The position numbers and the translations under genes were made by a program. This document shows, in pieces, positions 12,713 to 58,545 of a stretch of DNA of 64,000 nucleotides. The notes below the pieces were generated by a model, which saw nothing but the letters and a program-made list of their open reading frames with translations, had not been told where the DNA came from and ran no database searches. Location: the NCBI RefSeq assembly GCF_026151205.1, contig NC_087072.1:18708103-18772102 (forward strand). Direction: 5' to 3'. Position 1 is the stretch's first letter. Each line of letters starts with the position of its first letter. The DNA comes from Bolinopsis microptera (lineage: Eukaryota > Ctenophora > Tentaculata > Lobata > Bolinopsidae).

Positions 12713-12963
<251 letters not shown>

Positions 12964-13160: not shown

Positions 13161-13497
13161 GCAGAGCCCTTGCTCTGGTTCAACAGATTGCAGACCAAGA
13201 TCCGGACAAAAAGTTGAAGTGGGAGGTCGACTTTCCAGAACAACAGGACGATTTTATCCCCTTCCTAAACACTGAGGTCCGGATCGAGCCAAACGGTAAA
13301 TTAACCAGCAGATTGTACCGCAAGCCGCAACAAAAGGATATTACCCTGCACTAGGAACCGACCGGAAATCCGGCTGAATCCGGTGATCCGGCCGGATATC
13401 CGGCTTCAAAATCCGGTTCCGGTTCCGGCTCCGGCTGGAAAAAAATTTGCCGGATTTTTGCCGGATTTCAGTTTTTTTTACCGAAAAAAAAATCAAA

Positions 13498-30913: not shown

Positions 30914-32784
30914 GTAAGTTGAATAACACCTTGTATTGGTATAAACATGCCTTAACAAGACGTCTGACAACTAAATTTCCGGTTTTTGTGAGAGCTAACA
31001 TAACATATTAAATAATGCCTCTCTGGGCATCTCAACAAGACATTCACAGAAAATGAACAATTTACTAGAAAAGAACTTCGGATAGAAGCTACAAAAAATA
31101 ACTCTGCAGAATGTTCACAAACATATCAAATCGTTGGAGAAATTACTCTGTAATAACCATAGCAACGACGAAACAATAATTTATAATTTTTTGCTCATTT
31201 CTACATTTGTCGCTGTGCCATCGAGTATATTGTACACTTTACATTGTACATTATAAAGTAGATTGAGTAATTTAAACTATCATGTACAGAGAGGCTAATG
31301 ATACCATAACCACTGACGAGACTGCATACAAAAGTGTAACTAATGTTTTAATATTATGTGAAATTAAATCAATGAATTCACTTTTTATCTTCAGTAAATA
31401 TTTACTAAAATTTCAAGTTCAAAATAGATGAAACGAAAGCAAGAACACACCTAGTAACTTAGTAAGTTAGTAATACAGTAAAATACTGATAACTGAATAC
31501 TGACTAGAAGAAAACGCACGAAATGAGCTAGACTACACAACTACACACTAACAAATCTTCAGTGCAAGACATTTACTTCCGTATCGCTACACGATATTAT
31601 TATGATAGATATTAAAGTTAGGGTAATGAGTAGGTAATGAGTTTGGTAGGAGTTGCTGTTGGAGATCGTGGACTTTATTCTCCTGAGTAATACCTACCTA
31701 CATACAGAGACTACTACTATCAGTATTGTTACAGTATGTTGACAATGATAGGCCCACACACAGTACGAAATAAATACTTGTATTAACTGCGGAGGTGATT
31801 TTGTGTGAGGTGCAAAGTTCACTGTCATTGTTGAAAGTTCAACAATAACAGTGCACTGTGCACATCAGTTCTCAGCATTGAACATATTCTGTGTTATACA
31901 ATTTAACACACGATATACGACTCGTATATATCGTATAATACGAGCCAATCAGTAAAATTAATCTATCTACTCACTAAAAACTGCACGTTAGCTGAAGAAA
32001 TAAGGAATTTAATAATTGCATTACATCAGCACAGTATTACAAGGAACAGAAAATAACAATTTAAAAGACGGAAATAAGTGATTACCATCAGATCACCAGG
32101 TACACACAATTAAAAGACATGATTCAAAACAACTATTTAACTTAACGTGCATCACCACACTAGGCAAGCATTTTAGTGAACTTATCATGAATGATAAGCA
32201 ACAGCGCTATCTTTAATTCAACAATTTGCTATGATATTTACTAGCATAATAATGTATGTACACATTAGCTGCATAAGATTACATACTTCTTGTTAAATAA
32301 GACTGCATTCCCCCTCTGCGTGATAATTCATAATTGTCCTAAGACACCATTTAAGTGCTCATAACACATAGTGTGTCGTGTTTTGATCATTGAGATTTTA
32401 TTAACTCCAGCTCTGGTGTCTGGTAAGATAGTTACCATGGTTACACTCTTTATTTTTATTTTTCTATGAAATCAATACTTCCAGACAATGAGGAGAGATA
32501 TCACAATATTAGGAATAAAATCCCCCGTTTTAAGAGCAAATATCACTTTAATAACACATTTTTATAATCATGTGGCAGCTGGCAACGTATGTAATATTGA
32601 GGATTAGATGGAACCTTTAACCTATTTGAGTATTTCACTGTCTCAATCTGATAAGCATATTAACCAATAAGGAGTAGTCAAATTTATCAGTTATCTGATT
32701 TTATATTGCACCTGAAACCTGCAACTTGCAACCTGCAACCTGCGACTTGCAACCTGCAAACTGCAGCCTGCAACACGTATCGAA
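30914..32784. other. proximal part of the 27 kb NME5 intron
   Basis: AT-rich sequence after the exon 4 donor, with no ORF of interest and no recognised transposon. The last part should contain the 3' untranslated region of LDLa-GPCR gene 1. Confidence 0.6.
32710..32775. repeat. short minisatellite (CCTGCAACTTGCAA type)
   Basis: Five or so imperfect copies of a 14-15-mer lie just 3' of the stop codon of LDLa-GPCR gene 1. A similar word (CTGCAAACTGCAAGTTGC, near 32882) lies inside its last codons, so the C-terminal tail of this receptor may have been altered by repeat spread. Confidence 0.7.
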
Positions 32785-35700
32785 TTATTCAGTAACTGAC
32801 AATTTGAATTGACTGGCTTGTTCTCGTTCCCGTGTCCGTCGTCTTTCCATTCTGGTCTTGTGTCTTTGTGTCTTTGTAGGCTGCAAACTGCAAGTTGCTG
32901 ACCTTTGGACCTTATTAACCGGCTCAATCGCATCTTCTTTACTTGATTCCAGTCGAGTAGACCCTAAATTGGCTCTCAGAGTTACCACACTTGTAGATGA
33001 CCGCCTTGTTATTGTATCCACACCTGAGCAAGTAATTACCGTACTGGTTTCAAATCTGAGCATTCTCATAGATGAGGTCCAGACCTTCCGTATCAGAGTT
33101 GTTAGATAGGAGCAGTAGAGCAAGGGGTTAATGACAGAGTTAATTGGGAGGATGACTATGGAGAATGTAGCGTACCAAGGAGAGGCATCCACTACATTGC
33201 AGTAATGCAGCGCAGACATTGTGATAAAAGGCACCCAAGAGAAAAAATCAGTCAAAATAATCATTGTCAGTTTTCGTTGCATGGCCAAATTTTTACCTCC
33301 ATTTCTTTTTCCTTTCAACTGTCGTGTTGATGATAGTGATACGCTGTAAATCAATGCGTAGGAAACTACAATGATTATAAAGCAGAGTAAGTTCAAGAAA
33401 AGGACTGTAATGGAGTAGAAAGCTTGAGGATCTTCTGGAATTACAAAGAACTTAAAGAGACAGACCCCATCATTTCCGTAAAAGTGCAGCTTCACACCAT
33501 TGACTCCACCGTAGTCCTGAGAAAACATGTTCCTGACTAGACGACTCACGGTAAACCACGGGAGATTTGGGTTTCCTCTGAACTTTGAATAGTATTTCTC
33601 AAGAATTGCGATGTGTTTTTGCTTTGTCGGGGCTCCTATGAATAATTTAATTTTAGAATCGTAGTACACACCGTTCACAAAGATGTCTTCAAGATAATCT
33701 ACTATTGGTAGATATGATATCAAGAAGGTAAGAGCGAACATGAATACAATGAGGCCGCCAATAATGAGTTTGTTTTTTACTGGCAAATGATCAACCGGAG
33801 CTGAGAAAATGGTGACTGATTTAAGTCGTGCTAAACTTAACACTACCATAGCAAACAGGGATATTTGCGACCCGATGAAGCTGACAACACCCATAGCAGC
33901 ACAGTAACCACTTGTTAGCCAGAGAAATCTTTCTTTGCAGTATTTGTCTTTAAGGAGAATATTCACAATAGATAAGACTATAAGATAAAGTCCAACCATA
34001 AGATCTCCAAGAGAAATCATTGCTATCATTAACCTGTTCAATAGTTTGAAAGAACATTTTATTCCTTTGATATGGTGATTTGATCTCAGTAGTACCACCA
34101 TGTTGAACGATACTGCTAGAATCCCGACCACCCATGATGAAATGGTCAAGAAATATCCTTCTATTATCTTGGTTGAATGAACACATTCGTCAGAGAAATC
34201 ACCACAATCATATTCACCATCATTAACGCTGCTAAATGGTATCATCTCTCCACTTTCTTTACATTGGAAATGATTGAGACAGTTGACTTCATCCGAGCCA
34301 TCCCCACAATCGTCAACTAGATTGCATACTTTATCATAAGTTATACAGTAACCGTTGTTACAGGAAAATAGGTTACTTACATATTCACCCTTTATCTTTG
34401 TGGCTATTGTCAAATAGTTCTCCTCACTCAAAGTATATACCCTACGATCCTTAATGTTATGACAAGAATCGTGTTTAACAGGGGTCAAAATACATGGAAC
34501 TTCATTACAGTATCCGGAACAAGTTAGATAAACATAAAGTTCTCCGTAAACGTAACTGCATTCATTGTTCGAAGAGGATGATATTGCGATATTCATCTTT
34601 CTTGGTTGAATCCCAAATGGGTGATCAGGTGCAACAAAATCAATACTTGAATGCAGATTAAGAGATCGGCTCTTTTCGAGATCTTCAAGTCCTGGCAGAT
34701 AATACCCAATATAGAGTTTTCCTTCGTGGCTTACCATTGCTCGACTTTGTATCCTTGGTAGATTTCTTGAGACTTCACAAATCTCGGTTTCTTTTTTGCT
34801 AGCACTAGATCTGTCACAAATCTTGCCATATTCTTTAAAGCATTTGGAAATGTTGGAGCAGAAAAAAACTTCAGAACAGGGAGTTACAGAGTCCAGATAC
34901 CTTTTAGTCCATCCTTCCCCACATACCTTCCAAGAGTCTTTATCTTCATCTTTCCCATTCAAACAATCCTCTTCTCCATCTACAACCCAGCTAAGAGGTA
35001 TCAGCTGTTCTGTTCTCGGTGTACTGCTGGAGAATTTTCTTTCACAAGTCTGTTTTGTCAAGGATTTACAAATATAGTTGTCTTCGTCTTTGCCTTCTGG
35101 ACAATCTTTGTGTCCATCACAAAATTGATGCTTGTGAATCACACACCCACCCTCTGCGGCATCACAATTCCTATCAAGTCCATTGTCACACAAACTGGTT
35201 TCTTTGCACAGTGCATATCGTGAAACATTTGTCATATAGCCATCAACTTTGCAGAGTAGTGGGGACTCTAAAACATGAGAACAGTTCAATTGATCTCTGT
35301 AATCCTGGCAAACAAGATAAAGCTCGTTGGGAACTGTGCATCTGTTACTTTGAATGAGGGTCAAGGTTTGTGATCCGAGATTTTCAGTGCTTGTGCAGGT
35401 TTCAGTTCCGATACAGTTGGCTTCATCTGAACCATCTAGACAGTCCTGATAACCGTCGCATAGGACTGCAGGGGGCACATAATCCGTACTCCAGGTATTG
35501 AATCCTATTCTTAGATGGAAGGTGTTTTTGCAGAATGTTCCAAAGTTATGATAGTCTTTGTTGCATCCAACTTCGTCCTGGCAAAGATAGCATCGGCATT
35601 TACCGTCACACTTTTGAGTCCTGTTAACCTGAAATTAATTTTCTTACTCAATTGTCTTAACAATTTGCATTATTTCAGCCCAGTTAGTTTTAGTTAATTT

Positions 35701-37336
35701 AAAACAGAGCTGGCAATAGTCTATGGAGCTTCAAGATACTCACGTATTCTTCGTTGTTGCAGACAAACATTTCATCTTCACAGAACTGTTCGTCAACGTT
35801 AGTGTTGGTACAGGAGCTCTGTCCATCGCATTGAAAGAAGTACGTCATCTCGTTTCCCCCTTAGTAAATTGTAATAAAACCTTGATGTAGAAATGATGCG
35901 AATGATGCCCTACAGTTGCATTGATCAGTCTTCCATACAATAAATTCAGATTTAAATTCATTGGCCAAAACATGTGTTGTTATATATGTAATTTTTACCT
36001 TGGCTGACATATTTGGGATTATACTTCTGCCACCATTCTCCCTTTTCGTTCAGATACCACGTATTTTCAAGGTAGTAATTACATATGAAGGAGCCACAGA
36101 GCATGGGACCATCCGTCTGATACTGGTACTGTGGACATGTCACGTGACCACAAACTTGATAGAATCCGGGATCATTCTCACAGATTGCTGTGTGTTCCTG
36201 CAATGAGAATGATTAAGTCTAATCGATCTGCTCGATGGAAATCATAGACAAATTTTTGATTAAGTTGAAAAGTACCCTCAAATAAGGACAACTCACCTGA
36301 AAATCACAGAGTTCGATAGGTACTTGGTAGTAGATATCAGAATGGGTACATTTGTAGTAAGATGTTCCGTTTATATTGCACTGCAACTTCAGGTAGTCTC
36401 TCACTTCCACTATTTTACATTCCCCATCTTTTATATCTGGGGTAATAAACATTTATAATGAATATTCAGTACAACGAAAACATTATGATCAACAGTAATC
36501 AGTAATGTTATCGTGGAGGTTTTATTAAGAGGGCAGGGGGGTCTTTATGAAATTTCTCTCGAAATTGATGTTATAGTTGTTTCTAATAGAGGGGAGTGAT
36601 ATCTATTTGCTACTTTCGGTCCCATGGAAAAATATTGTTCCTAGACGAAATTATTGCCCGTCAAAGGTCAGCGCTGATGAGTAATTGTATTTCGCGAGCG
36701 ATTTTCAATCGCGCGCCCTGAAAATCGAGTCTAAAAATCTATCTTCTCCTACATTTTTTGAGCAATCACCTTGAAACTTTTAGGATATGTTCTAAGGACC
36801 ATAATTTAGAAGATGTCACTCTTTTTAGAATTTCGAGATAGGCCTTTAAACATTTTTTATTCCATTTTGAAAATCTTGGACCTGGAAAAAAAGAGGTCCA
36901 AGATTTTCAAAATGGAATAAAAATGTTTAAAGGCCTATCTCGAAATTCTAAAAAGAGCGAAATCTTCTAAATGGTCCTTAGAACATATCCTGAAAGTTTC
37001 AAGGTGATTGCTCAAAAAATGTAGGAGAAGATAGATTGAAAATCGCTCGCGCAATACAATTACACATTAGCGCTGACCTTTGACCGGCAATAATTTCGTC
37101 TAGGAACAATATTTTTCCATGGGACCAAAAGTAGCAGATAGATATCACTCCCCTCCATTAGAAACAACTATAAAATCAATTTCGAGAGAAATTTCATAAA
37201 GACCCCCCTGCCTCCTTAATCAGTTTCGTTTTGCTGATGATCTGATTCGAAACATACCTGTTATATTGCGATAAGCAACAGTAATTTCAAACAGCAACAT
37301 CATCATAGTCAGCATCGCAGCGATCGAGATGTTCAT
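32785..37336 (-). CDS. LDLa-repeat GPCR, paralogue 1 (GRL101/relaxin-receptor-like 7TM)
   Basis: Exons 37336-37258, 36436-36297, 36197-35999, 35859-35744 and 35628-32785, all GT-AG, sum 3,378 bases, 1,125 residues. Exon 1 encodes a signal peptide. Exons 2-4 are Cys-rich ectodomain. Exon 5 holds LDLa-type modules at about residues 229-250 (CDGYQDCLDGSDEANC), 344-361, 391-408, 609-628 and 644-660, then a rhodopsin-family 7TM from about 668. The 7TM has LISLGDLMVG-like TM2, NDGVCLF before TM5, MIILTDF..WVPF in TM6 and ILPINSVINPLLY in TM7. No leucine-rich repeats are present. The TM3 DRY box is Ala-Arg-Leu. The second extracellular loop is about 95 residues. Ligand unknown. It lies inside NME5 intron 4 on the opposite strand. 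Confidence 0.9.
36529..37215. mobile_element. 687-bp foldback MITE with TTAA target site, in intron 1 of GPCR 1
   Basis: The element is a nearly perfect palindrome: the left arm (36529-36885) is repeated inverted in the right arm (36900-37215), meeting at an A-rich centre. Ends are GAGGGCAGGGGGGTC and the complement of GGAGGCAGGGGGGTC. TTAA flanks both sides (36525-36528 and 37216-37219), which fits piggyBac, Kolobok or Sola3-type transposases. It sits between exons 1 and 2, about 40 bases from the exon 1 donor. A second, right-arm-deleted copy lies at the equivalent place in GPCR 3. Confidence 0.88.
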
Positions 37337-38079
37337 AATCGGTATTTTGATTGTTGGATCGTCCTCCGAGTTCGACTTGAAGTTGCAGCACAAATTCTAA
37401 TCCATAACCGAAAGGCAATATTGTTATACAGGCTCTTTAATTTTAACAGGAGAACTTTATTGCTTATGCTGGTTGAGCGACATGGCATGAGTACAATTTA
37501 ATGACATGAGCATTGAGCGCGAAAAATGTATTATGATGTAATGAAATCTATACAGAAAGGGCCTTGACCATTCCACAAAGCAAAAGGAGATAAGTTCCTC
37601 AATCTCTAGCTTACTAGAATCACCTCATTGATTCATGCATTCATTCACTATTATGCTCAAGGTAGGAATAAATCAGGGAAATATTAAATATCCAAAGCCT
37701 CAAATAAATATCAAAGGTCAGCTCCAACACAATATGCAGCGGCATCAAAGGGTGAGCAGCATTCATATATTCTTATTGGGGTAAACAACAAGAATTATAG
37801 GCAATCTGAGAAGCAATCGATAATTAAATAGCCTAAAGAAAACGGTTAACACGTGTAATGAATCCAAATGGAAAACATACCATGGCCTGGATCCATAATA
37901 CCAAGGACTTGTTATAGTTATAAATGAAAAGCTCGAATATGATCTTGGCAAATCCCAGATCCAAAATAAAGTTACCTCGCGGTTTTATTATTATTTTATA
38001 TACGTGTTCTAATGAGCCATTGATAAGTAGTTGTAGTCGACACAGCCTTGATGAGCTTCGAATAAAGAATGAATGTCAG

Positions 38080-38164
38080 ACATAAGACAAAGAAACGTTT
38101 AACAATAGAGAGAGTTGAACTACTATCTCTATTGGTCAACGTTTCTTTATTTAATGTCTTATGT
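38080..38164. repeat. 85-bp hairpin
   Basis: Arms ACATAAGACA-AAGAAACGTT-TAACAATAGAGA and the matching TCTCTATTG-AACGTTTCTTT-TGTCTTATGT pair around a loop of about 14 bases. The stem is long and nearly perfect. It could be a small foldback MITE or a transcribed hairpin (it lies inside the NME5 intron). No target duplication was identified. Confidence 0.55.
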
Positions 38165-39129
38165 TCCACCGAAAAAAAGAGACAGAGAAGTATGGACAGT
38201 GTAACGCCTAAATTGTCGTTTAGATAGTGACAAGTTTTAATGCGTTTTTTTGCACACAAAACTTTATTCAGATGACAAACGAGGCTCCGTGTTCTATGAT
38301 ATACACATAACTATACGGTTTACACATAACATAATGTCCAGCTGATAATAGTGACTAAACTGTAGCTGGACAGTGGACAGCTGCCTCTGTATTCTTAGCT
38401 CCCGTCTATTATTCATGAGCGCACTGTAGTAGTACTAAAGATCAGAGCCCTAGTGGCTAGCACACCAAGACACAGGGAGGACAAGTGCCACTCAACTCCA
38501 CATACTCATTATTATTCTGTTTTTATTTGTTAAATATTTATTAGGGCACATGAGTTTAACAAGTAGACAAGGTGCTAGACACTAAACACATGAGGAAATG
38601 CGTTTCATACGTCAGACAAATAAGGCCTCCAACAAAAATTGTTCTGATCGCTTTTTTGAAAGTGACTCAGGCCCCAGTGGATACCAAGCATAAAACATAA
38701 TGCTTGACTAAATTCCGCCAGCAACGGCTTGAAAACAAGGGAAATGGGCCAAAATAGCTTTCTCATAATTAGATGTCTCAAATGGTTGACTGTAGAGTTT
38801 TCTAACAATATTGGTGTAATGAACCTCAGGTCATTACATTTTATACTCTGTTAGTCAGTGGAAAAAGCGAACAACCGATCAAATTCTCGGTGTTGTTTGG
38901 GAACAGTTAAATTTAAGTTTATCATTTCAGCATTTCTTTTTGTTTGTAACTTGAAGGAGACAATTTCATCTAAAATTTTCATATATATACATAAAATGAA
39001 TAACATAGTATTGCCTATTGATCCGTATTAACAAGTGAGGTTTGACAACCCAGCCTTGTTTTAGACGTTGTTACATATATTCACTTTATAAATTCAATCG
39101 AATTTATAAAGTTATCAGTTCAAAACAAT

Positions 39130-42100
39130 TCAAAGAGTGTTAACTCTTACATTTTCACGTGATGATTCTTCACTGGCAATAACTGATCCCCTTGTGTCCG
39201 GACTAATTGTATTTTCCTGCATCTCAACAGCACCTTCTAAGGGATTGTCGTCAGAATGCGAGGCACGGCGCCTGGCACAAGTCCATATGTTTGATTTTCG
39301 TATACGAGTACACACTTCTCCTATGTATGAATTGTAGAGCAGCGGGTTGATTACGGAGTTGATTGGAAGAATCAAGACAGAAAGAATTGCATACCATGGC
39401 GAAGCATCAAAAACGTGCATGTAATGCAGGACAGATACAAGTATGAATGGGATCCAACATAAAAAGTCAGTTAAAATCATCATCGCAAGTTTTCGTTGCA
39501 TGGCTAATTCCCTTCTTCTAGATCTACTTCCTGCGTTATTACCAAGTCTTCTTGAAGAAGAAGTAGATTTTAGGTGAATGAAGGTATATGAAAATGTAAT
39601 GATCAAAAAGGAAAGGAAATTGATCAACAGAACAGACAAGGAGTAAGAAGCCTGAGGGTCATCTGGGGTGACAAAGTATTTGAACAAACAGACCCCATCA
39701 TTTCCGTAAAAGTGCAGCTTCACACCATTGACTCCACCGTAGTCCTGAGAAAACATGTTTCTGACTAGACGCCTCACGGTAGACCACGGCAGATTTGGGT
39801 TTCCTCTGAACTTTGAGTAGTACTTTTCCAGGATCGCAATATGTTTCTGCTTAGATGGTGCACCGATAAATAGTTTGATCTTGGGATTATAGAATAGACC
39901 ATTTACGAAGAAATCTTCGAATTTGTTCATTAATGGAATATACGAGATCGTAATCGAAATGGTGAGCACTGTAAGTGCAATAGTGATCATGGCAACAAAC
40001 TGTTTCAGAGGCATGGATCTGTTTCTATTGGATGGCATGCTTGTTCGACTCACCATTTTCATCCTGCTTACACCTAAAACTACCATAGCAAACAGTGATA
40101 TCTGCGAACCAGTGGAACTCACGACTCCCATACCAGCACAGTATCCACTTGTTAGCCAGGTGAATCTCTCTTTGCAGTATGTGTCTTTGAGAAGAATATT
40201 CACAACTGACAAGACGATTAGATAAAGTCCGACCATTAGATCCCCGAGTGATATCAACAGAATCATTAACTGATTTAGGAGTTTATAAGGGCAATTCATG
40301 GCTTTCAACTGAGGGAGTGACTTAACAAATGTTACTGCATTCAAGATAAATGCAAGGATTCCAATAACCCATGAAACAACCGTCAGGAAAAGTCCATCAA
40401 TGATCTGTTCAGTGTTCGAACATTCGTCAGAGAAATCACCACAATCATATTCACCATCATTAACGCTGCTAATTGGTATCATCTCTCCACTTTCTTTACA
40501 TTGGAAATGATTGAGACAGTTGATTTCATCCGAGCCATCCCCACAATCGTCAACTAGATTGCATACTTTATCATACGTTATACAGTAACCGTTGTTACAG
40601 GAAAATAAGTTGCTTACATATTCACCCTTTATCTTTGTGGCTATTGTCAAATAGTATTTCTCACTCAAAGTAAATACCCGATGATCCTTAATGTTATGAC
40701 AAGAATCGTGTTTAACAGGGGTCAAAATACATGGAACTTCATTACAGTATCCGGAACAAGTTAGATAGACATAAAGTTCTCCGTAAACGAAACTGCATTC
40801 ATTGTTCGAAGGAGATGATATTGCGATATTCAACTTTCTTGGTTGAACCCCGAATGGGTGATCAGGTGCAACAAAATCAATACTCGAACGATTTTTAAGA
40901 GAAAAATCCTTCTCGAGGTTTTCAAGTCCTGGTAAATAGTGACCAATGAAAAGACATCCTCGATATCTAACCATTGCTTGACTTTGTATCCATGGGAGAT
41001 TTCTTGAGACTTCACAAATCTCGGTTTCTTTATCACTAGTGCCGGCTCTGTCACAAAGGTTACCGTATTCTTCAAAGTTATAGGAAATGTTGGAGCTGAG
41101 AAAAACATCAGAACAGGGAGTTCTAGAGTCCAGATACCTTTTAGTCCATCCTTCCCCACAGACCTTCCAAGAGTCTTTATCTTCATCTTTCCCATTCAAA
41201 CAATCCTCTACTCCATCTACAACCCAGCTAAGAGGTATCAGCTGTTCTGTTCTCGGTGTACTGCTGGAGAATTTTCTTTCACAAGTCTGTTTTGTCGAAG
41301 ATTTACAAATGGAGTTGTCTTCGTCTTTGCCTTCTGGACAATCTTTGTGTCCATCACAAAACTGATGCTTGTGAATCACACACCCACCCTCTGCAGCATC
41401 ACAATTCCTATCAAGTCCATTGTCACATAAGCTGGTTTCTTTGCACAGTGCATATCGTGAAACAGTTGTCATAAAGCCATCAACTTTGCAGAGTAGTGGG
41501 GACTCTAAAACATGAGAACAGTTCAATTGATCTCTGTAATCCTGGCAAACAAGATAAAGCTCGTTGGGAACTGTGCATCTGTTACTTTGAATGAGGGTCA
41601 AGGTTTGTGATCCGAGATTCTCAGTGCTTGTGCAGGTTTCAGTTCCGATACAGTTGGTTTCATCTGAACCATCTAGACAGTCCTGATAACCGTCGCATAG
41701 GACTGCAGGGGGCACATAGTCCGTACTCCAGGTATTGAATCCTATTCTTAGATGGAAGGTGTTTTTGCAGAATGTTCCAAAGTTATGATAGTCTTTGTTG
41801 CATCCAACTTCGTCCTGGCAAAGATAGCATTGGCATTTTCCGTCACACTTTTGAGTCATGTTAACCTGAAATTAATTTTCTTACTCAATTGTCTTAACAA
41901 TTTGCATTATTTCAGCCCAGTTAGTTTTAGTTAATTTAAAACAGAGCTGGAAATAGTCCAAGGAGCTTCAAGATACTCACGTATTCTTCGTTGTTGCAGA
42001 CAAACATTTCATCTTCACAGAACTGTTCGTCAACGTTAGTGTTGGTACAGGAGCTCTGTCCATCGCATTGAAAGAAGTACGTCATCTCGTTTCCACCTTA

Positions 42101-42985
42101 GTAAATTGTAATACAAAATTATATGTAGAAAATTCGTAATGTCTGTCTTTGATGCCCTACAGTTGATCATCGGTCTTCCATCTGACAAATTTAGATGTAA
42201 CTTCTGTAGTACTATTGGCCAAAACATGTGATATTAAGCGCATTTTTACCTTGGCTGACATATTTGGGATTATACTTCTGCCACCATTCTTCCTTTTCGT
42301 TCAGATACCACGTATTTTCAAGGTAGTAATTACACATGAAGGAGCCACAGAGCATGGGACCATCCATCTGATACTGGTACTGTGGACATGTCACGTGACC
42401 ACAAACTTGATAGAATCCGGGATCATTCTCACAGATTGCTGTGTGTTCCTGCAATAATAATGATTAAGTCTAATCAATCAGCTAGATAAAAGTCATAAAC
42501 ATTTTTTGATTAAAAAGTTGAATATGACCCTCAAATAAAGACAGCTTAATACCTGAAAATCACAGAGTTTGATAGGTACTTGATAGTAGATATCAGAATG
42601 AGTACATTTGTAATAGGTCGTCCCATTTACGTCACACTCCTGTTTCAAGTACGACATTACCTCCACAATCCGACAGTTCTTAGAAATTTCTGAGGATACA
42701 AATCATTTCATTGTATTGACACACTGTTTTGGAGTTGGGCTGCAAGTGTTGATTTTCGATTGACTTTTAAATGAGAAAATATTCAATTCTGAAAGTTCAA
42801 CTAACCGTTCGCGTAGGTGATTCTTCAAAAATATACGTATAAGGGAGAAAATAACTAAATACTTAATATAATAATGTATGTTATTAAACCTTACCTGTGG
42901 CACTAGAAATATCATTTGCACATTGTGTGGGTTCCACGAACACAGAAATAAGGACTGCAGCTACTGTCACAAATATATTATTCAT
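39130..42985 (-). CDS. LDLa-repeat GPCR, paralogue 2
   Basis: Exons 42985-42895, 42689-42553, 42448-42250, 42096-41981 and 41865-39130, all GT-AG, sum 3,279 bases, 1,092 residues. Same plan as paralogue 1: signal peptide (MNNIFVTVAAVLISVFVEPT), Cys-rich exons 2-4, then a large exon with LDLa-type modules and the 7TM. The G-protein motif after TM3 is Ser-Arg-Met; TM7 has NPLLYNSYI. Exon 5 is nearly identical to paralogues 1 and 3 over the LDLa region and the long second extracellular loop. It differs in TM1, TM4, intracellular loop 3 and the tail. A hAT element (43140-45445) lies only 155 bases upstream of the start codon and may have replaced or supplied promoter sequence. Confidence 0.9.
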
Positions 42986-43750
42986 AATCTGAACCAATGT
43001 CTGAATATTCCTAAAGCAGAATTTATTTCGATAAATAAAATTATTGATTTATGTGTCACTGGTCTGGCCCCAATTTAAAATCACAAAAATCTTGACGTTG
43101 TCAAAAAATATTTGTTCGCCTTTCCGCAATCATACAAATTAGGAACCGACCGGTCTAGGGTTTGGCTGCCGGACCGGAATTGAAACGACCAGATATCAAT
43201 CTATTTTCCGGTTTGCCGGATTTTTCCTGGCCGGAACCGGGTAATAAAAAGAGGAAATTTGAGGCTGCCGGAAATTGCCGGAAAATAAAATTAATCCTTG
43301 ATTGTGGGTTTTTATCAATTATAATATTAAAAGCCATGTGGACACAATAAAAAACTTACAGTCCGACTATAAAATGTGTTCATGCCCTATCGGCTATCTC
43401 AAATTTCAACCAATGGTTGATATGTTGTGCGAGCAGTGCAGAGGTCACTGATTGATCTATTGTATGAGCAGAGCTAGAGCCTAGAAGGAGAAACGGGTTG
43501 GAATAAAATCAAAACGCACATTTCAAGAATTCACAACATTTTGCGTAGCACAAATGAAGAAATTGTTTTAGAAGTAAAACCCAAAATTCAGCATGTTCGT
43601 GGTGTCTTTATAACCGAGGATAATATCCATAGTTTTTTAATAGCATAATGGCCTTTATTTCCAAGCCTTGGTATAAGGGGAGTTAGTAACGGGTTTGCTT
43701 GCCACAAAAAAGAAGGAACCCTCTGCTAACTGCTTGCAATGTTCATGAAT

Positions 43751-45128: not shown

Positions 45129-45453
45129 AATTATTTCCAACATAGTAGTAGTAGTAGTGGTCTTGGTAGCTACTTCGACTCTTTTTGATACACAAAATCT
45201 GACATGAACGGGTCTATAACATTCGCTGACAGATAACAAGCTACAGTGAACTCACTGGTCACTGAGAGCACTGACTGGATGTCCATTAGCAATAATTCAG
45301 ACAAAAATATGCATGTCAGGAACATTTAAAAAAGAAATTTCCAGTTGAATATCCGGTCAAATTCTTGAAAACCGGACCGGAACCGGATACAAAAGCCGGA
45401 TATCCGGCCGGAACCATATTCTGCCGGATATCCGGTTAGTTCCTAATACAAAT

Positions 45454-48372
45454 GATAACCTTGTAGTTCGGTATTAGTTAGAGATAGAAATTTAAAATTC
45501 AGGCAACATGGATTTGATGCTAAAAGTGGTTTCCAAGGAAACGGACGAGGTTCCAAGTAGAGGTGAATATTCCCTCAATAGCTTCGAGAACAATGTTTCA
45601 GAAACAAAATTAAAGGGTACGGCAATGAAAACCATGGCCATTTGTCACTACATCTGACATCATTTGACATTTACCTATGGATTTATCAGTAAAGCAGTAA
45701 GGCTTACAAATTCATTAAAAATTCTTTGTGTCATCACGGTCTGAAGGATAAATGAATAATGTTTTTCTTTCAGTCACTATTACTCTATTATCACAGATTG
45801 TCCACAGACGTAGTGAGCTACGGCAATAATGAAAACTGAGTCATCTGTTCAAAAGAACAGATGTCCTGAAGCTAATGTCTCATACTCATGACCAAATGAC
45901 CACAATTAATACAATAAAGTAGACATATTGTGTGTATGGTATAATAACAACTTGATGCAATAATAGCAATATGATACAATAATGCATCTTATCTAGTCCA
46001 TTCATTTATGGACATTGGGTAGGTCCCTGCAAATTTCAGATACTCCTGAAACTTTGAACAGACATGAGGACCTCCCTAATGGTACTAGGATTTTTACAAG
46101 GATTACAAGGATTACAAATTAGAAGCTATATTACAATCCTAATACTAAATTTAGTCAAAGCAATATAATATTCGTATATATATATATATATGTATATAGT
46201 AATAATAAGTTCAGTAAGATTCGTCAATGTCATATAATGTTAAGTAGTTTTCGAGCGAAAGCTGTTCAGTTTCATATCTAGAAGTCTAGAGGAGTAGAAA
46301 AAGTGTAAAACATGGGGCCTTGTATGATCCGTTAAACAGTTTAGATTTTCTACTTCAAGCTTGGTTTTTTATTTAAAAGATTGTTTGACAAGAAGTGTCG
46401 GCTTAAGGCTTATATTTTGCGTTACTTGCGTTATATTACTGGAATGATGATGATGGTTGGTATGATTGAACGATTTCCAGTTGGATCCCCCTTTTTACCA
46501 TGGGTAGCGGCCCAGGAGGGCCACGATTATATTGAGCTTAGACGAAATTGACCCTTTGCTTCTGAAGGTCGTAAAGATTTCGGAATGGGCTTAAACAAAG
46601 CCGCATATGCATGTTTATTATACAAGTTATATAGAAGTTATTGATAATAATGTAGCCTAAAATCCCTAATTTTGGAGAAATTCGCCAAAAACCATTTTGG
46701 GTGTGACGCTGAGCCTGTTATACTAAGTTTTGATAGGGATCGGACAAGTAAAGATAGAGTTTTCAGATAAGCTGCACAAGAACCGCAATTATATCTATAA
46801 TAATGGTCACAGGGAAGAAGTTGAAACTATACTTTGATATTCAGTTTTTATCGCATCAAAAATCCATCCTTATCCTTAACGAATATAATACATAATGCTG
46901 CCGATTTCGATGTAAAACAATAAACACAACGTAATGACAACAAACCGATCATAATGTCGTTCCAATAATGTTCAAGTACTTGCACGTGAGCGTAACAACC
47001 CTCGCTACTACGCAACTTCCTATTTATCGTCTAATTTGCACGTGGGCGGTAGTACAGACAGAGAGAATCTTTCGAATTATACATATATTTATAATATAGT
47101 CATATCCTGTCCAAGAAGAATTCGTTGTAACTAAGTAGATACAAATTACGAAGAAACGTATTATACCTTAAAATGCTTACTTTTTGAGTTATTGGAGGAA
47201 AACTGATTTTCGGTTCCAGAAATAGCCATTTCTGCTTCCCGTTTTTGCCAATAACTCGAAAAGTATTTGCACTTTTGGTCATACGTTGCTTCATGAAATG
47301 TAGATAAACATGGCTATTGCAAACAATCTGCACTAAGTAAAGAGTGGGACGATAAAATCATAACTTACGGTTGGGAGAGCTGAGCTCATGATACACGGCA
47401 CTTTGTTTAGCCAATACAATACGACAATACAACACGACCTTGCAGATTAAGGAAGAGAGGCCCACTGTGCACAATTTCCAGGATATTGCGTGTCGCTTGA
47501 TGGCATCATTTTAAACGAGTCTCTATGGTGGTTACAGTAAACTCACAATTTAATTTAATTCCGTTGCCAAGGATGCTTAATGCTTATTGCTTAGTATGCT
47601 AAGTATAACCGACGGGCAATCTACGAACAGCTATTTTTCGATCAATAACGAAAGATAGCGCAAGGAATTTCGATTGAGGATCACCAAAAGATTTAAAAAC
47701 TTAATAAAGGAATTCACAAGAAGCTAGAGCTCAAGACAATGACGTGCCCTAACCCTTAGAATGGGCACTAACTAGGAGCCGAGCTACAATCCCTTGTCTT
47801 ACCATACGGCGGGCTACCCCCACGTTAGAAGAAGTAGCAATAATCCCGTACACATTACACAAGGTGCAGTGGGGAGAATAAAGGTTTATATACTTTAAAT
47901 AATAAGTGTTATCATGTATGTTGTACGGTATTACTGCAATATGTTACTGAAATATAGCGCTTTTTACCTCATGAAAAAAAGGCGATCCATTCAAAGGTAT
48001 GGTTGGTAATAAATGCATTATTTTAATGCGTAGGCAGTCCCCTGACAGTGGCCAATTTTTTAACGCTTTCCCCTCCACGAATTTATATGGGTTAGTTTTA
48101 GAATTTGGCGGATACCTGGCACAAACTAGAATTGTATTTTATATTTTGAGTAATGCATAAATTAGGGATGCTGTTATTGCTGACAATTTAGAAAACTCGA
48201 TTTTGTCAAAGTTAAAAGAGTATGTACTACTAATTACTATACAGTATACAGTATAAATGGAACATGGAAAATCTACATGCACGATAAAATAAAATTATGA
48301 CCGTTCATAAAATGGGACGATTATATAGGTTAATTTAACTCCTCACAGAATACACATTCGGCAAATGTAGTT
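45454..48372. other. intergenic spacer between GPCR 2/hAT 2 and GPCR 3
   Basis: No gene recognised; a short (AT)n run lies near 46170-46195. The final part should include the 3' untranslated region of GPCR 3. All of it lies inside the long NME5 intron. Confidence 0.55.
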
Positions 48373-51300
48373 TTAAGCATCCGTCTCAGGTATTGCACAT
48401 ATCTCCTTTGTATTCGGGACCTCGTCTGATGCATTAACCATGGTTGATGCAGTTATCCGTCTCTTCATCCGAAGAGCATGGCGCTCAGCTCTGGGGAGCA
48501 GAGGTGGAGGAGATAGTATGGAAATCCTAGAAACCCTCTCATTCTTTATGGGAAAGGTGGTATTTTCTGGCAGAGAGACCTCGCGACTATTAATTTCTTT
48601 TTGTGTTATTGTGTTTTTGTCTACGGTTTCTTCAATAAATTGTGAACTGTGAATTTTTACCAGCTTCTTTGAGGATACCCAAAGTTTTTCTAATAGTGTA
48701 CTAAGGTAGGGATCGTAAAGTAAAGGATTGATGACGGAGTTGATAGGCAGGATCAATATAGAGAATGTTGCATACCAGGATGTTGCATCTACAATTAGAA
48801 AGTAATGTAATGTAGAAACAACGATAAATGGAACCCAACAGAAAAAATCTGTCAAAATGATCATTGTTAATTTCCGTTGCAATGAAGAACTTCGGTTTCG
48901 AACAGCTCCTTCGGGCATTGAGAATTCCCCCAAGTATCTTAAAGAAGATATGGACACGATGTTAATTAAGACGTACGAAGAGGTTATTATGAAAAAGCAT
49001 GCAAAGTTTATTACAAGAATCGTCAAAGTGTAGAAGGCTTGAGGATCTTCTGGAGTTACAAAGAACTTAAACAGACAGACCCCGTCATTTCCGTAAAAGT
49101 GCAGCTTCACACCATTGACTCCACCGTAGTCCTGAGAAAACATGTTCCTGACTAGACGCCTCACGGTAGACCACGGGAGATTTGGGTTTCCTCTGAATTT
49201 TGAGTAGTACTTTTCCAAGATTGCAATATGTTTTTGCTTTGAAGGAGCACCTATAAAAAGTTTAATGCGCTTGTCGTAGTAAAGTCCATTAACAAAAACG
49301 TCCTCCAGTCTATCTAAGAGTGGCAAGTATGATATCAAGAAAGATGCGAGTAACACGACCACCACCAGTACTATTGCAATACATTTATATCTTTTGCTTC
49401 CATTTCCGCCTGGTCCCACTCTTCCTACTGTCATAAACCTACCCAAGCTTAACACTACCATAGCAAACAGTGATATCTGCGACCCAGTGGAACTCACGAT
49501 CCCCATAGCAGCACAGTACCCACTCGTTAGCCAGAGAAATCTCTCTTTGCAGTATGTGTCTTTGAGGAAAATGTTTACAATAGATAAGACGATTAGATAA
49601 AGTCCGACCATCAGATCTCCGAGTGAGATTAGGAGAATCATCAATCTGTTTAGGAATTTTGATGGACATACATAATCCCCCAACTGAGTAATTGATCTCA
49701 TGAAAATTATGACATTGAACAGAGTGGCGAGAACGCCAATAATCCACGAAATTACTGAAAGATACGGTTGATCAATAATAGATTTAGTGTATGAGCATTC
49801 ATCTGAAAAATCCTCACAATCATACTGGCCATCATCAACGCTGTTCAGTGGTATAATTTCTCCAGTTTCTTTACATTTAAAATGATTCAAGCAGTTGATT
49901 TCATCTGATCCATCTCCACAGTTGTCAACGAGATCACAAACCTTATCGTATGTAACACAATAACCATTATTACAGGGAAAAAGGTTGCTAACATAGTTTC
50001 CTTTCTTCTTTGAAGCAACTGTCAGATAGTTTTTACCGCTTAATGTGAACACCCTATTGTCCTTGATATTGTGACAAGAGTCAAATTTAACGGGCTTCAA
50101 AATGCAAGAGGCTTTGGAGCAAAATCCACTGCAACTAAGGTACACGTAAAGCTCTCCATAAGCAAAACGACAGTCAGAGTGAAATGTAGATGGCATTGCA
50201 ATTGTTATAAGCTGTTGTGGTACTCCAAATGGTTCATCTGGTGAAGTGTACTGTGTGGTTAAGTGTTTGTCGAGATTAGGATTCAACTCCAGATTCTCTA
50301 ATCCTGGTATATGGTGACCTATAAACATCTGTCCTTCATGTCTCACTATCACCTGATTTGGTATCTTTGGGAGATTTCTTGAGACTTCACAAATGTCAGT
50401 TTCTTTATCGCAAGTACCTGTTCTGTCACAAAGATAACCATATTCTTCGAAGGCTTCGGAAATGTTGGAGCAAAGGAAAACGTCAGAACAAGAAGTTCTA
50501 GAATCAACGTATCTTTTACTCCATCCTCGTCCACAGACCTTCCAAGAGTCTTTATCTTCATCTTTCCCATTCAAACAATCCTCTACTCCATCTGCAACCC
50601 AGCTAAGAGGTATCAGCTGTTCTGTTCTCGGTGTACTGCTGGAGAATTTTCTTTCACAAGTCTGTTTTGTCAAAGATTTACAAATGGAGTTGTCTTCGTC
50701 TTTGCCTTCTGGACAATCTTTGTGTCCATCACAAAATTGATGCTTGTGAATCACACACCCACCCTCTGCGGCATCACAATTCCTATCAAGTCCATTGTCA
50801 CACAAACTGGTTTCTTGGCACAGTGCATATCGTGAAACAGTTGTCATAAAGCCATTAACTTTGCAGAGTAGTGGGGACTCTAAAACATGAGAACAGTTCA
50901 ATTGATCTCTGTAATCCTGGCAAACAAGATAAAGCTCGTTGGGAACTGCGCATCTGTTTCTTTGAATGAGGGTCAAGGTCTGTGATCCGAGATTTTCAGT
51001 GCTTGTGCAGGTTTCAGTTCCGATACAGTTGGCTTCATCTGAACCATCTAAACAGTCCTGATAACCGTCGCATAGGACAGCAGGGGGCACATAGGGGGCG
51101 TACCAAATTATAAAACCAATCCTCATGTTAAAAGTATTCTTGCAGAGAATCCCATAATTCTGATACTCTTTACTGCATGCAACTTCGTCTTCACATAAAT
51201 AGCATTTGCATTCTTTATTACATACTTCCCTTGCGTCAACCTGTGGAATGAAACCATTACAATTATTGGTAATATTTTCGCAGTTAAAAAATAAGCATAA

Positions 51301-52539
51301 TTTCAAAATGTCGTGTATGACCATGATATCCTCAACCTTTCCGACAGATTCTCTAATTTAAAGGCTTTGATATCTTTACTTACATATTCTTCCTCCTCTT
51401 TTTCATTACACACGAACTTTTCCTCGGGACAGTCTTGTTCATCCACTTGTGTGTTGCTGCAAGAAGGTTTACCATCGCAGTGGAAATTATACGTCATCTC
51501 GTTTCCTCCTGAACATATTGCTATTTGGTGCGGAGACATGGGGCCATATATAGGTTTGGAGTTTTCAACTATGTTTTGAACGATCCTGTCACGAAATCAC
51601 ATCATTAATATTATTTACCTTGACTGACGTTTCTAGGGTAACCAGGTCTCTGCCACCATTCCCCATATTCATTCTGATACCACGTGAGCTCCTGGTAGTA
51701 GTGGCACATGAAGGAGCCACAGAGCATGGGACCATCCATCTGATACTGGTACTGTGGACATGTCACGTGACCACAAACTTGATAGAATCCCGGATCATTC
51801 TCACAGATTGCTGTGTGCTCCTGTAATTGGAATAATTTTATACAAATTAAATGCGGAATAAGCATCTAGAAATTTCCTTGATGAAGTTGAAAAACCCTTA
51901 ATTTCGACAGCTCACCTGAAAATCACAGAGTTCAATAGGTACTTGGTAGTAGATATCAGAATGGGTACATTTGTAGTAAGATGTTCCGTTTATATTGCAC
52001 TGCAGCTTCAGGTAGTCTCTCACTTCCACTATTTCACAGTTTTCTGGAGTTTCTGCAGATTAAAGGGGGCAGGGGGGAACTTTATAAAATTTCTCTCGAA
52101 ATTGATTTTATAGTTGTTTCCGATAGAGGAGAGTGATATCTATCAGTGCTTTTGGTCCCATGGAAAAATATTGTTCCTAGCCGAAGTTATCGCCGGTCAA
52201 AAGTCAGCACTCATGTGCAAAATGGCGCGCGATTTTCAATCGCGCGCCCTGATAATCGAGTCTAAGCAATCACCTTGAAACTTTCAGGATATGTTCTAAG
52301 GACCATTTAAGAGATTCTTAGAAGATAGGCCTTAGAAACATTTTTATTCGATTTTGAAAATCTTGGACCTCGTTTTTTGACGATTTTTCCAGGTTCAAGA
52401 TTTTCAAAATCGAATAAAAATGTTTATTAAAAAGTTTAGTAACCATATAATTTTGTACAGAAGTTCTCCTACCTTCCAATTCTATTGACGTAGTTGCAAC
52501 GATGATAGTGTAAAACAGCCCCCATAATAAGATAGACAT
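48373..52539 (-). CDS. LDLa-repeat GPCR, paralogue 3
   Basis: Exons 52539-52473, 52052-51916, 51820-51619, 51508-51384 and 51240-48373, all GT-AG, sum 3,399 bases, 1,132 residues. Signal peptide MSILLWGLFYTIIVATTSIE; Cys-rich exons; LDLa modules; 7TM with ISLGDLMVG, Gly-Arg-Phe in place of DRY, and NPLLYDPYL in TM7. The cytoplasmic tail is the longest of the three (basic, with PERA-type stretches, ending IPETDA). It is the most diverged paralogue in the middle of the ectodomain (CILKPVKFDSC region) but is nearly identical to the others at residues encoding the second extracellular loop. The ATG at 52539 is preferred because the upstream open frame has no ATG and because it gives a good signal peptide. 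Confidence 0.9.
52064..52426. mobile_element. right-arm-deleted copy of the TTAA foldback MITE, intron 1 of GPCR 3
   Basis: The left arm matches 36529 onward (GGGCAGGGGGG, CTCTCGAAATTGATTTTATAG, CCCATGGAAAAATATTGTTC). Only about 37 bases of the right arm remain (52390-52426). TTAA is present at 52060-52063 and 52427-52430. The element end lies 12 bases from the exon 2 start, so on the minus strand its C/T-rich terminus (CCCCTGCCCCCTTTAATCTG before CAG) forms the polypyrimidine tract of the acceptor. Confidence 0.75.
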
Positions 52540-55066: not shown

Positions 55067-55093
55067 GGGGGGGGGGGGGGGGGGGGGGGGGGG
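55067..55093. repeat. poly-G tract (about 27 nt) followed by G-rich stretch
   Basis: Uninterrupted G run, then GTGGGCCGGGGGTGGGGTGGG to about 55114. It could form G-quadruplexes or mark a difficult assembly position. Confidence 0.9.
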
Positions 55094-55439
55094 TGGGCCG
55101 GGGGTGGGGTGGGTTTTGATAATACATACAGGCAAAGTAGAGACTAAACGATAAGTTGGTTCGCACGAAATATGCTTAATATTCCCCAACGAATATCCGA
55201 GTAGAACCCTGCAACTTGAGTTGGACATCTGAAATATGAAAATAGAAAATAGCAACTACTATAGTACCTCATTTGATACAAGTATAAATCTACTGTTAAA
55301 AGGGATCTAGTTACTTCAGACTAAGTGAAATATTGCTACATAATCTAGGTTATTCTGCCGAATGAACCACTTTAGTTAACACATGAATCCCAGGCAACTG
55401 TTGGTTCAGCAGTATCATCTTTCTAGCCCAAATGTGGCA

Positions 55440-56285
55440 AGTACAGTAAGCGACCAGTAAGTGACCAGTACAGTACGTGACCAGTACAGTAAGCGACCAG
55501 TAAGTGACCATTACAGTACGTGACCAGTACAGTGCGTGACCAGTGCGTGACCAGTACGTGACCAGTACTGTACGTGACCAGTAAGTGACCAGTACAGTAA
55601 GCGACCAGAACAGTACGTGACCAGTACAGTAAGTGACCAGTGACCAGTACAGTGCGTGACCAGTGCGTGACCAGTACGTGACCAGTAAGTGACCAGTACA
55701 GTAAGCGACCAGAACAGTACGTGACCAGTACAGTAAGTGACCAGTGACCAGTACAGTGCGTGACCAGTGCGTGACCAGTACGTGATCAGTACAGTGCGTG
55801 ACCAGTACAGTGCGTGACCAGTACAGTAAGCGGCCAGTAAGTGACCAGTAAAGTGCGTGACCAGTACAGTGCGTGACCAGTGCGTGACCAGTACGTGACC
55901 AGTACTGTACGTGACCAGTGCGTGACCAGTACAGTAAGCGACCAGAACAGTACGTGACCAGTACAGTAAGTGACCAGTGACCAGTACAGTGCGTGACCAG
56001 TGCGTGACCAGTACGTGACCAGTACTGTACGTGACCAGTAAGTGACCAGTACAGTAAGCGACCAGAACAGTTCGTGACCAGTACAGTAAGTGGCCAGTGA
56101 CCAGTACAGTGCGTGACCAGTACGTGACCAGTACGTGACCAGTACAGTGCGTGACCAGTGCGTGACCAGTACGTGACCAGTACTGTACGTGACCAGTACA
56201 GTAAGTGACCAGTGTCCAGTACAGTAAGTGACAATTCCAGTACGTGACCGGTACAGTACGTGACCAGTAAGTGGCCAGTACAGTG
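55440..56285. repeat. minisatellite of GTGACCAGTAC/AGTGC units, about 845 bp
   Basis: Mosaic of 10-16-bp words: CGTGACCAGTACAGT, GCGACCAGTAA, CGTGACCAGTG. Higher-order blocks of about 100-170 bp are repeated (for example 55560-55660, 55660-55770, 55900-56010, 56010-56100). The minus strand is open across the array for 331 codons (Trp-Ser-Arg-Thr-Gly-His repeats) because the repeat lacks stops; this is not treated as a gene. Confidence 0.92.
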
Positions 56286-56289
56286 TATC

Positions 56290-58242
56290 ACGTACATAAC
56301 ATTAACAAGAGGTGCTGAGAGGCAGTGGATTTTAAGCTCCCCCACCCCAAGCTAAATTATAGTTTGAAAAGTGTAAACCAGTGCCAGAATCTAATGTGGG
56401 GTTCAGTGAGATACAGCACAAGTTGCACAGTTGCAGTTTACATCACAGATACAGTTTTGCGAAGTCATAAAGGACCTGGTAAAATCTATATACAGAAAAC
56501 ACAAGGCAATACCCACCTATTTAAGCTCTATAACTGGGCACGTAATTAGAGAGAAATATAAGCAAGAAGGTAGAACAAAGAGATTTGAATCTTCTAGAAC
56601 CTTAATAGTTTGAATCGGTATTATTTAATATGATATCAACAAGTATATGTCGATAATTATACATTCAGAACGTTTAAAAAGATAATTATACACAATGGTC
56701 GAACGGGGCCACTATTTTGGCCGGGACCGGGATTAAGACCGGGACAGGGATTTTCTGGCTATAAAAATAGAATCTAAGTACTGTATTATTATGCCATATT
56801 AGAGGTTGAAATGCAAATCAGTTGAAAAATAAACACCACATTGACTATGTATTCTCTACATATAATAACAGGTGATTGCCAAAGAAATTGGTAGTCATCA
56901 AAATAAATTTGAGGTACTTAGAGAAAATTGACCACGTGGTAATAATTCTGGCCTAAGTGACATAATTGGCGAGAGAGGAAATGCAATGTGTGTTTGGGTG
57001 AGCTACAATTCTACAGTACGGGACCAAATTTAAATTGTTTTGTAATAGCCGGCACCTGCAGCTCTGCAGTACAATTTATCTTATCATATAAGCATATAGT
57101 ACTTACAGGGTAGCTGAGATGACAAGTGGAGAAATTTGCAATTTAACTGATCCAAATCGACCAACAAACTAATGCCCGTGACCAAATCGTCGTTTGAATG
57201 GGGGACAATTTTGGGGCGCCATCCTGCAGCGTTACGCCACTGCATGTATAAGTTTTATATGATCAATTGGGCATGATAGGTTAAGCGTAAACAAATTTAA
57301 GATAAAAGAGAGAAATTCTTCACTTTAACATTGTTGGATGAGTGTGATAAGCTCAGATAAATAAATGTGTAATGAGCTGGGATCTCAGCTTAGGTTCACC
57401 ATTCTTTGTTTGATATGTATATTAAATATTAAATGAAGGGGGACTGAACAATAAACAGAAAGGATCTCTGATCACAATAGGCAGCCACTATCACACCATT
57501 GCTTTGGTCGTGTAAATTTTAATGACATATCACATCTACCATACTAAATTTATAGGTGGCTAGTGGCTACCACTCACGGTCTCAACAGTTAATAAACACT
57601 ATTTATTATCTGAAATCTAAGTTTCTAAAATGTCCTCAAATTTTCTTGATCAGTTTCATACCAAAAGATTGTTTTGCCAGAAAAAGTTAGTGAATTTGAT
57701 ATTAGTGGTCGTGTGCCCGACTACAACTATTCCGAACACGTCCGAAACCGAATTGTGCGAACCAGACTCCTACCTAGTGACACCCCACTACACACACTTG
57801 AATGCCATGCATGCAACTGAACAAAGAGGAGAGAGGTCGAATTTGGGGGAGACAGAGTTGACGATTACTGTCGAACAAGGGGGTAGAGCGACAGGGTATC
57901 TGTCATAGAGTCATTAAGTTTAGTGAATAACATTAAACCACAATTATTTGGTAGATCATTCTGTGTAACACGCTGTGATGTATACTAGAGACTTGGGCTG
58001 TGAGCATGAGGGTCAGGAATGAAGGATAGAGCTGTTTATGAATATGCAGATCATAGTGGACCTATTTTGAGTTGGTTTCTTGCTAGATAAGTGGGAGAAG
58101 GAGTAATGAGGAGGAGTTTTGACATTTAAATGATAATTCAATTATGCGAGCACTTAAATTTAGTGCACCACTTTTTAAAGTAATTTTTAAACAGGTGACC
58201 TGCGAAAAAACGTACTATCATCATGACCAAAATTTGTTTCAG
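56290..58242. other. distal part of the NME5 intron
   Basis: No gene recognised. A small CCGGGACCGGGATT-type repeat lies near 56715-56755. The open frame 57630-57908 (92 codons) has no known domain. Confidence 0.5.
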
Positions 58243-58545
58243 CTATTGTTGAGCCGATATCATCCGGAGACCAAGCAACTGATTATCTTGTAAAGAACGT
58301 GATGCCAGTCTTGACTAACGGATTTGTTGAACTATGCAAAGTGAAACCAGAGGATCCCCTGGTGGGTTTGATATTTACATTATCAGTTCAATTAAAAAGT
58401 TATTTTTATGAAACAGAATTTGTATCTAAATTAGCCATGTGTACTTCTAGACCTCTAATATTAACTTTTTCAGAGCTGGATCGCAGATTGGCTCATGGCG
58501 AACAACCCTAACAAGCCTCAAGTGCTAGAACCTACAGTGGCTTAA
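58243..58545 (+). CDS. NME5: NME5, exons 5-6 (Dpy-30-like C-terminus)
   Basis: Exon 5 is 58243-58361 and exon 6 is 58474-58545, with acceptors tttcag/CTATTG and tttttcag/AGCTGG. With the phase-1 G of exon 4 they read AIVEPISSGDQATDYLVKNV then MPVLTNGFVELCKVKPEDPL, and SWIADWLMANNPNKPQ, ending in a stop at 58543. This corresponds to the IVEPI..GQ..KDYL..HIMP.L...L.ELCK..P.DPL.WLADWLL.NNPNKP tail of NME5, a Dpy-30-type dimerisation motif. Nothing between 30914 and 58242 encodes this tail, so the exons must be joined over one very long intron, unless the gene is broken. Confidence 0.88.

Follow-up and report, generated by a model that had tools for sequence, protein, structure and literature searches.

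The NME5 gene of the ctenophore Bolinopsis microptera is a single-copy gene, and its reading frame is intact on both sides of a 27.3-kb intron that holds three receptor genes on the opposite strand. We consider it likely that this is one working NME5 gene whose intron grew as receptor genes settled and duplicated inside it, and that the guests are independent genes that still exchange DNA with one another. We base this reading on features observed directly: the gene structures, the reading frames, the single-copy host, the coding constraint on the receptors, their sequence mosaic, and the tree position of dispersed copies. The window we analyzed is a stretch of 64,000 nucleotides of contig NC_087072.1 (positions 18,708,103 to 18,772,102 of the forward strand, assembly GCF_026151205.1), and coordinates given without a contig or locus are positions within it. 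Most matches in our genome searches lie on contigs C1 to C13, with exceptions on C92 and C14, and eleven of these contigs measure 15 to 26 Mb. One ionotropic glutamate receptor ORF of the genome has the Mnemiopsis iGluR ML032222a as its top PDB match, in keeping with a ctenophore.

NME5 is a single-copy gene with an intact reading frame across a long intron

29986 to 30123, plus strand: NME5 exon 1, coding part (translation, splice sites, NDK domain)
30329 to 30426, plus strand: NME5 exon 2 (translation, splice sites)
30553 to 30660, plus strand: NME5 exon 3 (translation, splice sites)
30813 to 30913, plus strand: NME5 exon 4 (phase 1 end, donor GTAAGT)
30914 to 58242, plus strand: NME5 intron 4, the host intron, 27,329 bp, GT-AG (splice sites; exceeds 100 of 100 sampled intron gaps)
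58243 to 58361, plus strand: NME5 exon 5, Dpy-30 region (translation, splice sites, Pfam, phmmer)
58474 to 58545, plus strand: NME5 exon 6 with stop codon (translation, splice sites)

By translation and splice sites, the six exons join to 636 nt, or 211 residues, with the stop codon included in exon 6. The introns measure 205, 126, 152, 27,329, and 112 bp; all five have GT-AG ends, and the long one interrupts the frame in phase 1. Pfam placed an NDK domain (3.8e-44) ahead of a Dpy-30 domain (2.3e-16), the domain order of an NME5 orthologue. In a phmmer search confined to the PDB, the top three sequences were all NME5 entries, the best of them scoring 268.7 bits over residues 8 to 206. The alignment of these residues with NME5 chain 8j07_X is ungapped at the exon 4/5 junction, and both displayed PDB alignments cross this junction without a gap.

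A search of the whole genome (264.65 Mb in 232 contigs) with NME5 returned 14 matches, comprising the six exons described here and eight relatives at 31 to 48% identity; exons 5 and 6 each turned up just once. Two NDK matches (L005 and L004), one at C8:6499390 and the other on C92, a small contig, had equal score and profile range, and the latter contig is perhaps a leftover haplotype. Exons 5 and 6 have no other visible partner and appear to be still under selection, so splicing from 30913 to 58243 over the long intron would be the simple reading.

The initial annotation had proposed that exons 1 to 4 and 5 to 6, matching in phase, complete an NME5 of 211 codons whose other introns are 100 to 210 bases long. 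Frame, splice sites, and PDB alignment agree with this structure, and the other four introns fall in that range. The same annotation had named a complete NME5 elsewhere as evidence that would count against it, and the genome-wide search found none. Its central proposal, a single NME5 gene extending over the intron with a tandem array of receptors inside, is well supported from the sequence. In other animals, NME5 is reported to have a role in motile cilia.

Three receptor genes lie inside the intron on the opposite strand

32788 to 37336, minus strand: receptor A, five exons, 1,125 open codons (Ldl_recept_a)
37336-37258 (candidate signal-peptide exon), 36436-36297, 36197-35999, 35859-35744, 35628-32788, minus strand: exons of receptor A
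39133 to 42985, minus strand: receptor B, five exons, 1,092 open codons (Ldl_recept_a and 7tm_1)
42985-42895 (candidate signal-peptide exon), 42689-42553, 42448-42250, 42096-41981, 41865-39133, minus strand: exons of receptor B
48376 to 52539, minus strand: receptor C, five exons, 1,132 open codons (Ldl_recept_a and 7tm_1)
52539-52473 (candidate signal-peptide exon), 52052-51916, 51820-51619, 51508-51384, 51240-48376, minus strand: exons of receptor C
36524 to 37220, unstranded: foldback (palindromic) element, intron 1 of receptor A
52058 to 52426, unstranded: related shorter foldback, intron 1 of receptor C
about 55444 to 56281, unstranded: minisatellite (Tandem Repeats Finder)
43964 to 44517, plus strand: remnants of a mobile element, probably a LINE 3' end (DUF6451 below the cut-off)

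Receptors A, B, and C each have a large intact last exon and three exons upstream of it in the same order, with no internal stop. LDLa repeats were found in all three last-exon open reading frames (ORFs), and two of the three (B and C) passed the 7tm_1 cut-off; receptor A received no Pfam 7TM call, yet it is 79% identical to B over its length. Pairwise dN/dS was 0.29 for A and B, 0.20 for A and C, and 0.20 for B and C (897 to 929 codons). The receptors are protein-coding genes under selection.

The first exons are candidates, and the promoters are presumed. We located the former by a rule that called for a signal-peptide exon with a phase-1 donor, applied in a strict and a relaxed version. Under the strict rule there was one such place upstream of A, two upstream of B, and none upstream of C. 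The relaxed rule gave the C first exon and a second C place, further places upstream of A and B, and one place outside the host intron (61655-61610); it gave none in one 8.2-kb control stretch. We chose the candidates nearest exon 2, and in all three receptors GATT stands before the chosen candidate start codon. All 15 modelled exons, the three candidates included, fall within 32788-52539, so each receptor model stays within the host intron.

These three parallel five-exon models confirm, with their first exons as candidates, the three complete opposite-strand LDLa-GPCR genes of the initial annotation, and the foldback elements and minisatellite that it reported were recovered at 36524-37220 and at about 55444-56281, respectively. 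The foldbacks of A and C are related and occupy the same place, intron 1, and B has none. A hAT element, also reported in the intron, was not confirmed in a partial test. Pfam recognized no transposase among the 9 of 152 ORF pieces (at least 40 aa, outside the receptors) that were scanned, and three pieces from another intron, which we ourselves read as hAT-like, had no tblastn match in the window. The debris at 43.9-44.3 kb had a single Pfam match, to DUF6451 at 43964-44266 with an E-value of 1.1e-4 that lies below the family cut-off, and its 44131-44517 piece matched no Pfam family.

Elsewhere in the window, an uninterrupted LINE-like reverse transcriptase ORF of 1,131 codons lies upstream of NME5 (19559-22951; RVT_1, 7.9e-36) and is perhaps a recent insertion. 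A perfect GA dinucleotide repeat of ~121 units (12716-12958) adjoins a 256-bp tandem repeat array (13488-15561).

The trio is part of a very large LDLa-7TM family

PDB sequences that match part of the 7TM region of receptor B include 8w1z, thyrotropin receptor and relaxin receptor 1 (7tmw); in phmmer searches, parts of it matched TSHR, FSHR, LHCGR, and relaxin receptor 1, and also somatostatin and motilin receptors. We considered an assignment of the receptors to the LGRs (types A, B, and C, including RXFP and GRL101) and rejected it, having sought leucine-rich repeats and not found them. Pfam detected no LRR family in the last exons of A to C or the N-terminal portions of receptors B and C (E<=0.05), nor in six paralogues (E<=0.01). 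PMC4079206 places comb-jelly LGRs among types A and B and describes cnidarian receptors with multiple LDLa domains. LDLa modules and a rhodopsin-type 7TM region are common to our trio and to the LDLa-bearing LGRs covered there (relaxin receptors and GRL101-type), but the trio differs from these in having no detected leucine-rich repeats.

With the second extracellular loop as the query, all 150 scored loci, from 345 candidates, were matches (E <=2.3e-16 in every case) on contigs C1 to C14, and the matched loop piece was free of stops in 149 of them. The LDLa-7TM family is thus very large, with at least 150 loci in the genome, and it may be one of the animal's chief families of sensory or recognition receptors. 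Since the family is so large, a few members within introns need no special cause, and nesting by chance would be unsurprising. Its loci cluster locally, for example at C7:10.05-10.36 Mb, C7:16.92-17.08 Mb, and C11:18.4-20.5 Mb. We found no description of this expansion in the ctenophore literature at the level of titles and abstract openings, which, given thin coverage of subscription journals, is weak evidence of absence. In our view, a family of this size may matter more than the nesting itself, as little is known of ctenophore sensory receptors.

The nearest relatives of the trio lie on chromosomes 5 and 8 (contigs C5 and C8), outside NME5, with 67% and 68% identity to receptor B, respectively; the chromosome-8 match is interrupted by a stop. 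In a tree of the 7TM region (27 rows; L015, L018, and L037 were excluded for their short length), the chromosome-5 copy is sister to C (100/99), and in a tree of the ectodomain (30 rows) the chromosome-5 and -8 copies are sister to C (99/97). The trio and the dispersed copies together form a clade in both (100/98 in the 7TM tree, 100/100 in the ectodomain tree). Because the dispersed copies branch inside the trio, which is not a clade by itself, a single founding insertion followed by a single exit is preferred by parsimony only. The best reading, with its direction set by that parsimony, is that the dispersed copies left the nest for other chromosomes. By eye, we recognized no host exons in the ORF list beside the chromosome-5 relative, whose flanks of just 4.5 and 5 kb (L049 and L050) are too short to judge nesting, and the one ORF piece from them that was scanned with Pfam had no match. 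A very long trinucleotide-like tract adjoins this copy (L049, about 2980-3450) and produces one-letter runs in the translated frames.

The receptors appear to exchange outer-domain sequence

The three copies form a mosaic (35999-32788 in A, 42250-39133 in B, and 51619-48376 in C), in which the ectodomain is near-identical in parts and the 7TM region and tail have diverged. Receptors A and B are identical at 196/199 positions of exon 3, 115/116 of exon 4, 112/115 of intron 4 (97%), and 925/1000 of the opening stretch of exon 5, and then at 665/982 of the 7TM coding sequence (68%). Identity in the 7TM region is 68-71% among all three copies. The lower identity of A and B in introns 2 and 3 (only 79/99 and 106/134) suggests more than one short tract, rather than exchange in a single clean tract. 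In exon 2, by comparison, A is closer to C (126/137) than to B (100/137).

Synonymous divergence follows the same pattern. Between A and B, dS in 100-codon windows was 0.05-0.11 over alignment codons 0-300 and 400-500, 0.45 over 300-400, and 1.1-2.8 over 500-900, with several windows saturated and yielding no value; between A and C and between B and C it was low only at alignment codons 100-300 (0.03-0.17). We also compared the longest shared run over 600 variable third positions with 5000 shuffles. The longest runs were 35 sites for A and B, 18 for A and C, and 16 for B and C, each equaled in 0/5000 shuffles, whereas the longest runs of A and B with the chromosome-5 copy were reached in 1881/5000 and 2337/5000 shuffles, respectively. 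Receptor C shares a run of 13 sites with the chromosome-5 copy (1/5000 shuffles), so exchange or shared recent ancestry also involves a dispersed copy.

The non-coding intron 4 is more similar between A and B than is the coding sequence outside the tract, a pattern that points to exchange of DNA rather than to selection on the protein. These observations suggest that gene conversion produced the mosaic. By the A-B mosaic, the trio would be an instance of concerted evolution among nested guests, whose receptors appear to swap outer-domain sequence.

A model for the locus and its relation to NME5 expression

We propose that a receptor gene of this family settled in intron 4 of NME5 and was then probably duplicated in tandem, in situ, to three copies, which together with mobile-element debris and the minisatellite would have stretched the intron to 27.3 kb. 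The NME5 primary transcript would cross the entire intron before being spliced. The receptors would be separate transcription units on the opposite strand, each possessing a promoter, a signal-peptide exon, and introns of its own, and they may be expressed in their own cells, with no tie to NME5. Gene conversion would keep exchanging ectodomain-coding DNA between the copies while the 7TM parts and tails diverge, with the exchange between A and B clearest from exon 4 through intron 4 and roughly halfway into exon 5. A C-like copy would later have been duplicated to chromosomes 5 and 8.

A bolder reading, which we regard as rather unlikely, is that the intron has served as a long-lived receptor nursery, in which recurrent conversion maintains a shared ectodomain, the 7TM and cytoplasmic parts diverge, and copies seed other chromosomes, with the trio forming a sense linked to ciliated cells. 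If this were true, one sensor could serve several signaling outputs, and it would be the place within a gene of locomotor cilia that makes the trio a ciliated-cell-linked sense.

It is also conceivable, but in our estimation improbable, that selection keeps this layout for functional coupling, with NME5 transcription setting or limiting the output of the receptors through interference or antisense pairing, or with enhancers of ciliated cells shared between host and guests. If our splicing model holds, transcription of NME5 has to pass through all three opposite-strand receptors, and in human cells nested genes can lead to retained introns, exonization, and cryptic polyadenylation (PMC3192792). 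On the other hand, at least 150 loci of the family are spread genome-wide, its nearest relatives to the trio sit outside NME5, and the guests of a comparable insect array, the TipE cluster, are co-regulated, with expression that correlates among themselves and with that of their channel but poorly with that of their host (PMC3240667). The initial annotation took the layout to mean transcriptional interference or coordinated control. That conclusion does not follow, although co-regulation of NME5 and the receptors, or interference between them, is possible. The NME5 nest offers a clean test of whether host transcription acts on nested genes, in a species whose swimming relies on large cilia.

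The host intron is exceptionally long and its flanking exons are conserved

We estimated intron sizes from the gaps between neighboring profile matches in 100 pairs, 39 from myosin heads and 61 from kinesins. Myosin-head gaps had a median of 333 bp and a maximum of 18,971 bp, with 3 over 5 kb, in a sample that omits 23 neighbor pairs skipping or repeating profile positions (longest omitted gap, 13,325 bp). Kinesin gaps had a median of 251 bp and a maximum of 3,552 bp, with 0 over 5 kb; this sample used 107/109 matches, with two one-exon genes omitted, omits 20 pairs as well, and includes some near-duplicate genes. NME5 intron 4 is longer than 100/100 of these long-tailed gaps, just 3/100 of which exceed 5 kb, and it is therefore not typical of the genome but sits far out in the tail. 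The 19-kb myosin intron (L047, L048) contains a LINE-like ORF pair and simple repeats, which shows that long introns here can grow through insertions; by eye, no receptor gene was seen among its ORFs of >=75 aa.

An intron that exceeds every sampled gap could also mark a host that was split by the receptor expansion, leaving a short protein that ends within the intron and exons 5 and 6 as relics. Reading past exon 4 into the intron stays open for 32 more codons before a stop, so a short NME5 isoform ending there is conceivable, though the extension contains no Dpy-30 domain. However, the part of the protein encoded by exons 5 and 6 is as similar to 8j07_X (34/57) as that encoded by exons 1 to 4 (84/141), and the distal exons thus look to be still under selection. 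They also keep phase, splice sites, and stop, and they are the sole copy found in the genome, which makes a broken host very unlikely. Although a large receptor family with some near-identical members can mislead assembly, wrong placement of the receptor block into NME5 is scarcely credible, as the window contains no N, the block sits in a 26.2-Mb contig, and the trio, at 68-71% identity in the 7TM part, differ well enough not to be collapsed repeats.

Comparison with known nested genes

The intron of human NF1 holds three opposite-strand genes, OMG, EVI2A, and EVI2B, which are not a tandem family, unlike the NME5 trio. Nested genes make up ~6% of Drosophila genes and frequently lie on the opposite strand (PMC3786989). 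In that source, tim2-2mit is likewise an opposite-strand protein-coding gene in a host intron, but it is one guest and not an array. PMC3240667 describes two gene families within single host introns in insects. One, a GMC oxidoreductase cluster in a large flotillin-2 intron, differs from our case in encoding enzymes and in its host. The other is the TipE channel-subunit cluster, housed in the final intron of CG18675, the insect orthologue of human C21orf59; Teh2 and Teh3 lie opposite to TipE, and the nesting is conserved over most insects examined (PMC3240667). Like the NME5 trio, these are related membrane-protein genes in one intron of a conserved, single-copy motile-cilia gene. All three NME5 guests, in contrast, lie opposite to the host strand, and they carry a conversion mosaic. 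C21orf59 is the older name of CFAP298. CFAP298 is required for ciliary motility.

The initial annotation called a ciliary host for a tandem receptor array unusual. The TipE cluster and the frequency of nested genes in Drosophila weaken this, while the array in NME5 itself stands. At the level of titles and abstract openings, a literature search found no matching account of nested arrays with gene conversion. The NME5-receptor layout is of a known kind, that of intron-nested genes, with a close parallel in the TipE cluster, and it is long in size. To these systems it adds a well-bounded case of receptors in tandem array inside a motile-cilium gene of a ctenophore, and what is new beyond the precedents is an array of three receptors that appear to converge by exchange.
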